A stretch of 64,000 nt of DNA. Origin: Allocoleopsis franciscana PCC 7113. Lineage in GTDB: Bacteria > Cyanobacteriota > Cyanobacteriia > Cyanobacteriales > Coleofasciculaceae. The notes below the pieces were generated by a model that made no database searches, was not told the origin of the DNA, and saw only the letters and a list, made by a program, of their open reading frames with translations. Where the stretch lies: the NCBI RefSeq assembly GCF_000317515.1, contig NC_019738.1:3126001-3190000 (forward strand). Reading direction: 5' to 3'. Position numbers and translations under genes: made by a program. Position 1 is the first letter of the stretch. Each line of letters starts with the position of its first letter. Below are positions 3,640 to 61,902 of the stretch, in pieces.

Positions 3640-3870
3640 AGTTTTCTTGTTCCCCCCTTGATAAGGGGGGCTAGGGCGTGTTTTCAAATTTCTCTGTCAG
3701 ATTTAGATCCCCCTAAATCCCCCTTGTAGATCCCCCTCCCGTCCCCCTTAAAAAGGGGGAAGCCAGAGGATGCTTCGCTTTTGATTTAACGGGGACTTTG
3801 ATTGGATTCTCCCCCCTTAATAACCGGAGCTTTAGTGAGGGGGGCTGGGGGGGATCGAACGAAAAGTAGG
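3640..3870. repeat. Cluster of C/G-rich palindromic repeats
   Basis: Several hairpins lie in tandem: CCCCCCTT/AAGGGGGG at 3652-3670, a CCCCCTT/AAGGGGG-type hairpin near 3739-3761, and C-runs at 3708-3740. The stretch at 3822-3840 contains, in reverse orientation, the 17-mer CCTCACTAAAGCTCCGG that is also found at 6072-6088 and inside ureC at 61299-61315. This looks like an accumulation of small interspersed repeats rather than a gene. Confidence 0.7.
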
Positions 3871-6041: not shown

Positions 6042-6155
6042 TCGGCTCCGGTTGATTTTTCTCCAGTCCGTCCTCACTAAAGCTCCGGCGGCGGACTTCG
6101 GTTTTATAGCCGCGAATTCCATTCGCCAGGGCTTATTTCTTCCGGAGTCGTCTTT
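6042..6155. repeat. Interspersed-repeat sequence abutting the CRISPR trailer
   Basis: Directly after the break in the last CRISPR repeat comes non-array sequence with the 17-mer CCTCACTAAAGCTCCGG (6072-6088), shared with 3823-3839 (reverse) and with ureC at 61299-61315. The abrupt switch at 6041/6042 suggests that a rearrangement or repeat insertion removed the rest of the array's distal repeat. Confidence 0.55.
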
Positions 6156-60114: not shown

Positions 60115-61902
60115 ATGAGTTATAGAATGGATCGCCGCGCTTATGCAGAAACATTTGGGCCAACAGTAGGCGATCGCATCCGTCTGGCGGATACGGAACT
60201 GTTCATCGAAGTGGAACGGGACTACACCACCTACGGCGATGAGGTGAAGTTTGGCGGCGGTAAGGTAATTCGGGATGGGATGGGACAATCCCCCATATCC
60301 AACGCCGATGGTGCCGTTGATCTGGTGATTACGAATGCCCTGATTCTCGATTGGTGGGGCATTGTTAAGGCAGATATTGGGATTAAAGACGGCAAGATTT
60401 TCAAAATTGGCAAAGCGGGGAATCCCTATATTCAGGACAACGTTGATATCATTATTGGCCCGGGTACCGAAGCGGTGGCGGGAGAAGGGATGATTCTTAC
60501 GGCTGGGGGAATTGATAGCCACATTCACTTTATCTGTCCTCAGCAAATTGAAGTGGCGATCGCATCCGGTATCACAACCATGATTGGCGGTGGAACGGGT
60601 CCAGCCACCGGCACAAACGCCACCACCTGCACCCCTGGCCCTTGGAATATGTATCGGATGCTACAAGCGGCTGATGCTTTCCCTGTGAATCTCGGTTTTT
60701 TGGGTAAGGGTAATAGTAGCCAACCTCAAGGATTAGTGGAACAAGTCAGGGCGGGGGCGATGGGGTTGAAGCTACACGAAGATTGGGGAACGACACCAGC
60801 CACGATTGATACCTGTCTGAGTGTTGCCGATGAGTATGATGTGCAGGTGGCAATTCACACCGACACCCTGAACGAAGCCGGGTTTGTGGAAGCGACGATC
60901 GCAGCCTTCAAAAACCGTGTGATCCATACCTACCATACAGAAGGTGCAGGCGGGGGTCACGCGCCAGACATTATCAAGGTATGCGGTGAAGCGAATGTGT
61001 TGCCGTCTTCCACCAACCCAACTCGTCCCTACACCCTCAATACCCTGGAAGAACACCTGGATATGTTGATGGTGTGCCACCACTTAGATCGGGGAATTCC
61101 AGAGGATGTAGCGTTTGCAGAATCGAGAATTCGTCGGGAGACGATTGCGGCGGAAGATATTTTGCATGATTTGGGTGCATTTAGCATGATTTCGTCGGAT
61201 TCCCAGGCAATGGGACGAGTGGGCGAGGTGATTATTCGCACTTGGCAGACGGCGCACAAGATGAAGGTGCAACGGGGGAACCTAACCCCCCCAACCCTCC
61301 TCACTAAAGCTCCGGTTCCCTACCAGGGAAGGGGGGAGTTCAACTCCCCTCTCCTTATAGGAGAGGGGCAGGGGGAGAGGTCGGATAATTTCCGGGCGAA
61401 GCGGTACATTGCCAAGTACACGATTAACCCTGCGATCGCCCATGGGATTGCTGAGTATGTGGGTTCGGTGGAAGAGGGCAAGTTGGCGGATTTGTGTCTG
61501 TGGCGTCCGGCGTTTTTTGGGGTGAAACCAGAGATTGTGATTAAAGGGGGTGCGATCGCATGGGCGCAAATGGGCGATGCCAATGCTAGTATTCCCACAC
61601 CCCAACCGGTGCACATGCGTCCGATGTTTGGTAGTTTTGGCGGTGCGATCGCAGCAACCTCTCTCACTTTTGTTTCCAAGGCAGCATTAGAACAGGGAAT
61701 TCCCGAACAACTCGGATTGCAAAAATCAGCGGTGGCGGTGTCTAATACGCGGCAATTGAGTAAGCGAGATATGAAGCTGAATGATGCGTTGCCCCAGATG
61801 GAAGTAGACCCGGAAACTTACGAAGTGAGGGCGGATGGGGAATTACTCACCTGTGAACCCGCGACGGTTTTACCCATGGCGCAGCGATATTTTTTGTTTT
61901 AG
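60115..61902 (+). CDS. ureC: Urease subunit alpha with in-frame insertion
   Basis: UreC is the nickel-bearing catalytic subunit that hydrolyses urea to ammonia and carbamate. Nickel and catalytic residues are intact: HIHFICPQQ, the carbamylated lysine in [35 protein letters not shown], the flap Cys/His in MVCHHLD, and SSDSQAMG. Start ATG 60115 has GAGGAG upstream. The protein has 595 residues, against about 569 usual; the surplus lies at residues about 389-423, between MKVQRG and [17 protein letters not shown], where the DNA is a set of palindromic repeats. The frame is kept, so a functional enzyme is likely. Confidence 0.97.
61279..61381 (+). repeat. Palindromic interspersed repeat inside ureC
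   Basis: The stretch holds the 17-mer CCTCACTAAAGCTCCGG (61299-61315), then GGGGAGTT/AACTCCCC (61333-61349) and a perfect 10-bp stem CCCCTCTCCT/AGGAGAGGGG with a 3-nt loop (61346-61368). It corresponds to the residues not found in other UreC proteins. Confidence 0.8.

Follow-up and report, generated by a model that had tools for sequence, protein, structure and literature searches.

Unrelated interspersed repeats recur in one variable loop of the cyanobacterial urease alpha subunit

The ureC gene of Allocoleopsis franciscana PCC 7113 raises the question of how DNA with the look of an interspersed palindromic repeat can stand in frame within a key enzyme, and whether the place where it stands is peculiar to this genome. 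The gene lies in the window, the stretch of 64,000 nucleotides that was analysed (contig NC_019738.1, positions 3,126,001 to 3,190,000), and its features are collected in Table 1. UreC is 595 residues long here, whereas most bacterial ureases of solved structure have 566-572; in the alignment with Klebsiella aerogenes UreC the only break comprises residues 392 to 420, in agreement with the initial annotation, which had placed a surplus of about 26 residues at 389-423. The loop spans 35 residues versus 8-10 in most bacteria, and the insert substitutes for the ordinary loop of about nine residues and is not a plain addition. The nickel-binding and catalytic residues H136, H138, K219, H221, H248, H274, H322 and D362 are invariant in the alignment. 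A structure model built on 42 sequences, a single predicted chain not placed in the full enzyme, matches solved ureases with a TM score of 0.88 and gives residues 395-420, flanked by two helices, a pLDDT below 50 (34-50 for the loop versus a mean of 80). The loop is predicted to be disordered, and its extra residues, about 26 in number, apparently come from translated repeat DNA.

Table 1. Positions in the window of ureC, its variable loop and the repeats within the loop DNA.
Feature	Position	Strand	Evidence
ureC, urease alpha subunit, 595 aa	60115..61902	+	Translation; K. aerogenes UreC matched in sequence and fold; nickel-binding/catalytic residues invariant
UreC variable loop, residues 389-423, MKVQRG to DNFRAKRY	61279..61383	+	Loops compared among cyanobacteria and with other bacteria; pLDDT <50 at 395-420
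Element A, interspersed, ACCTAACCCCC ... GGGGGAGAGGT; double hairpin, imperfect inverted repeat at the termini	61280..61381	+	Near full-length genome copies at 75-86%; ends compared
Nested 18-bp micro-repeat TCCTCACTAAAGCTCCGG, genus-specific	61298..61315	+	Copy counts across genomes; sequence contexts
First hairpin P1, TTCCCT-ACC-AGGGAA	61316..61330	+	Sequence; form in relatives CCCTTCCCTGCAAGGGAAGGG
Second hairpin P2, CCCCTCTCCT-TAT-AGGAGAGGGG, perfect 10-bp stem, 3-nt loop	61346..61368	+	Sequence; genome copies

The repeat features that had first been noticed in the loop DNA, a 10-bp stem, an 8-bp palindrome (GGGGAGTT-C-AACTCCCC) and CTCACTAAAGCTCCGG, which recurs in the window, are all present. 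They belong to an element of about 102 bp with two hairpins, here called element A. Within its own 7.97-Mb genome the loop DNA has 41 matches, itself counted (E<=0.001); four other copies are near full-length at 75-86% identity, the best being 86% identical over nearly the full length, and one full copy lies on a 92-kb contig that is probably a plasmid. The core of hairpin P2 occurs in 31 copies at <=2 mismatches, with none for the reversed control. Its stems are perfect in 23 of these 31 copies versus a mean of 11 after arm shuffling, and nine of the stems carry a paired C-G to T-A change. Full copies start with ACCTAACCCC and end with GAGAGGT, forming an imperfect inverted repeat in which ACCT(AA/CT)CCCCC stands, imperfectly, at both ends. 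The repeat identity of the ureC loop DNA is far beyond chance, and the proposal of an in-frame interspersed palindromic repeat in ureC is borne out. Rfam gave no family above its gathering score, the best being a 23-bit match to RF02953 (cut-off 42). Since the RNA of the insert folds just modestly more strongly than its shuffles (z -1.9), we claim no RNA role for it.

Other genes of this genome also carry element A. Judged at the 31 core loci, eight copies, ureC included, lie inside large open reading frames with Pfam domains, the other seven hosts being WD40, CHAT, TPR/AAA, GH3, kinase-AAA_16, PNKP ligase and another AAA protein. Several of these copies stand between annotated domains and one stands within a CHAT domain; two further copies are near N termini and may fall outside the true coding region. 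A search of plasmids gave an 83-bp match on a Calothrix plasmid as the sole match to the element: part of element A (L003:1534-1616) matches AP018209.1:118313-118391 of the Calothrix brevissima NIES-22 plasmid at 92%, at a place where no gene is annotated. This plasmid is predicted to be conjugative, and such a copy is a possible route for element A between species.

Nested within element A is a much smaller repeat. Its 18-bp form CTCACTAAAGCTCCGGTT has 49 copies in this genome (G000) at <=1 mismatch, with none for the reversed control, and 67 copies in a congeneric genome (G001); ten other genomes were searched, of which nine have no copy and the tenth has one. Several different host repeats contain it. 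In the window, CTCACTAAAGCTCCGG occurs elsewhere at 3824-3839 on the minus strand and at 6073-6088 on the plus strand, the former inside a C-rich palindrome and amid other hairpin repeats at 3640-3860. SDR5 and its kin are small dispersed repeats of cyanobacteria, and the 18-bp unit, likened to them by description, is likewise tiny, dispersed, restricted to a genus and found inside other repeats. In ureC the micro-repeat is present in G000 and not in G001. A gene of the GH3 family (L236 in G000, L296 in G001) contains element A in both species, in frame and at an identical site, and there the micro-repeat is found in G001 alone, adding a net 15 nt in frame. This reciprocal presence and absence in ureC and the GH3-family gene implies that units the size of the micro-repeat come or go in coding sequence within one genus. 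The nested unit looks recent and the outer element A, common to other genera of the family, looks older. The initial annotation had a mobile repeat inserting into ureC; its interspersed character stands, but the insertion is not a new one confined to this genome, the outer element being common to other genera of the family.

Comparison across bacteria places this loop in a broader setting. The UreC loop has 8-10 residues in 29 of the 33 other bacteria read, with a maximum of 20, and 7-63 residues in cyanobacteria; the loop takes insertions, as the initial annotation had suggested it might. The rest of UreC, measured between a conserved N-terminal motif and the end of the protein, has an identical length in 103 of 105 cyanobacterial sequences. 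One of the two exceptions is a probable assembly duplication; in the ureC of G465 (L210) the C-terminal end is duplicated around an unresolved base, most likely an assembly join. At least four repeat families, unrelated in sequence, occupy the same loop: family A, the double hairpin, in this family (Coleofasciculaceae) and in some Nostocaceae-like genomes; family B, GGGCAAGATGCCCGTTCCACA, in one to four tandem copies; family C, CCCCCCTTANCAAGGGGGG, in one to several copies; and a heptamer family, (CCCTACT)n. In the genomes concerned these families occur in multiple copies, and in most other genomes they are rare. Family A has 9-69 genome copies in clear cases, family B about 14-267 copies per strand where a genome has full units, and the heptamer about 495 copies in the genome concerned. 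Family C reaches 45 copies per strand, with one to three copies in G039 and G159, and its own-genome contrast is weaker than for the other families. The loops of relatives, like that of A. franciscana, also hold repeat-like DNA, and the repeat itself is abundant elsewhere in the A. franciscana genome, so neither of the findings that would have spoken against the original proposal was obtained. The loop of G050 has a lineage-specific hairpin variant, CCCTCTCCGCAACGGAGAGGG, that is present several more times in that genome. In G130 (L172, family f33) the loop of 63 residues consists of a 48-bp tandem array whose source is the hairpin of family A.

The loop changes quickly within a gene that otherwise hardly changes. 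UreC of G000 and G001 is 97% identical, with loops of 35 versus 20 residues. Over 556 codons outside the loop, dN/dS between these two genomes is 0.029; between G000 and G005 it is 0.019, with dS near saturation. By these ratios ureC is under strong purifying selection, as the claim of an insertion tolerated in a key enzyme would have it, and the possibility that ureC of G000 is a pseudogene was rejected by dN/dS and the intact catalytic residues. Loop states require about 21 changes on a tree of 118 UreC sequences with the loop excluded, and the starred branches alone force six changes between empty and filled; because many inner branches of this tree are weak, the number of loop gains is uncertain. 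The clearest filled and empty pairs are the sisters G116 and G167 (15 versus 8 residues, support 98) and G467 and G465 (29 versus 10 residues, support 99), the latter differing by a clean 57-nt insertion.

We favor the reading, at a probability of roughly 0.8, that repeats repeatedly land and expand in the one length-tolerant loop of UreC, are translated, and survive as disordered peptide. Repeat identity, retention of the frame, recurrence in one loop and constraint on the rest of UreC can be read directly from the sequences. The loop between the helix that ends in MKVQRG and the helix that starts with DNFR would be the sole place in UreC that tolerates changes in length. Genomes of filamentous cyanobacteria are full of short interspersed repeats, and in these organisms the repeats common in each lineage would have invaded the loop again and again, as the sequences filling it indicate. 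The resident here would be the double-hairpin element of about 100 bp, which, to judge from the shared ends, was present before several genera of the family diverged, and the 18-bp repeat of the genus would have entered it later. Insertion is the likely mode of loop gain, and the repeats most likely move by a general mechanism of their own that is not aimed at ureC. Copies that keep the frame would survive because the extra peptide is exposed, disordered and without harm to catalysis; such exposure and neutrality are suggested by the open frames, by the constraint outside the loop and by the low order predicted for it. Tandem duplication, loss and nested insertion would then change the loop rapidly. 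More tentatively, and with rather less than even odds, the loop could be a phylum-wide safe landing site and a running record of the repeat invasions of each lineage, a natural experiment in insertion tolerance in which some peptides may have gained a role.

Several other histories could in principle give rise to long loops. Transfer or recombination of ureC alleles might spread filled loops from few true insertions, and loops interleave in a way consistent with such exchange, B with C loops inside a single genus and A loops among Nostocaceae-like genomes. It is nevertheless unlikely, because the contents of the loops match the repeat stock of the host, down to a variant specific to one lineage and the nested 18-mer specific to the genus. 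Very unlikely is a single ancient insertion followed by vertical decay and divergence, with no repeated landing. The ends and junctions of element A are indeed common to several genera and remnants run through a deep clade, but the heptamer and families A, B and C show no sequence relationship to one another, empty loops with ordinary sequence (SLAGDSNA) stand next to filled sisters, and the heptamer is a clean insertion relative to a congeneric empty site. The heptamer and G116/G167 pairs largely refute this history.

Recurrence in a single loop would also be expected if the loop were adaptive, for example in docking or assembly, with selection favoring long peptides rich in Pro and Gly that the repeats encode. 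Forward insertions of element A in the ureC genes of two distant families, and those in several further proteins of G000, do read in the same frame (xPLLxGEGLGER). Against this stand the wide variation of length and sequence among near relatives (20 versus 35 residues within a genus), the 8-9 residues found in many relatives and the predicted disorder of the loop, and we consider such selection quite improbable. Slippage in C and G runs, in which the loop DNA is rich, might have produced a low-complexity loop that resembles repeats by chance; 31 copies of the hairpin core versus none in controls, together with the 75-86% matches over about 100 bp, refute it and leave it a negligible probability, and the control counts likewise reject chance or low complexity in general. 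An assembly error is an unlikely source of the loop, the genome being in 9 contigs and filled loops being present in dozens of independent assemblies.

What the initial annotation observed is confirmed, and the phenomenon goes beyond what was stated there. In-frame palindromic repeats within proteins are already known from Rickettsia and from GTAG/CGTC REPs (PMC10969869, PMC3733652); what is new is that unrelated repeat families have used one loop repeatedly. The parallel entry of at least four such families into one loop of a well-studied enzyme, the rest of which hardly ever changes length, provides replicated cases of repeat DNA becoming protein. The filled and empty sister pairs allow direct tests, and the loop offers a permissive urease site for inserting tags or peptides. 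No report of these peptides or of repeat insertions in ureC or urease was found in the literature, of which subscription papers were poorly covered, and the main text of PMC3733652 makes no mention of urease.

How element A relates to known systems is best judged from its behavior. As outlined in PMC10969869 and PMC3733652, the Rickettsia palindromic elements (RPE) of Ogata et al. (2000) are short hairpin-forming interspersed repeats that lie in frame within numerous protein genes of unrelated kinds and are apparently tolerated there. Element A is likewise an interspersed palindromic repeat within the range of about 100-150 bp (~102 bp, 41 matches) and in frame in several unrelated protein genes (ureC and seven open reading frames with Pfam domains). 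In contrast to RPE, it occurs in a different phylum, one enzyme loop is hit by several unrelated families, and the repeats are nested. Element A behaves like RPE, beside which it is set by description and not by sequence; the suggested resemblance to the Rickettsia elements is one of behavior. GTAG/CGTC REPs include intragenic hairpin repeats that encode tens of residues in open reading frames, as element A does, and REP families are reported in cyanobacteria too (PMC3733652). However, element A ends in ACCTAACCCC and GGGGGAGAGGT without a GTAG or CGTC tag, and no RAYT transposase flanked by the same repeat was found in the genome. Because it is without REP tags and its likeness to RPE is one of behavior, we file it in neither group. 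Cyanobacterial MITEs (Nezha and others) are small with imperfect terminal inverted repeats (PMC10969869). Element A, small and with apparent imperfect inverted repeats at its ends, resembles them, but no clear target duplication or parent insertion sequence was found for it: no clear target-site duplication was seen by eye in five near full-length copies, and no transposase in the genome could be linked to the element. A RAYT as its mover was rejected, the single full Y1_Tnp (RAYT-like) gene (L260:1300-2010) being flanked on both sides by another palindrome, GTATAGCCCCAC(C/T)CTTCAGGGTGCGGG. This gene and its flanking palindrome are likely a separate REP system, and a copy of the micro-repeat lies in the 5′ flank of the gene.
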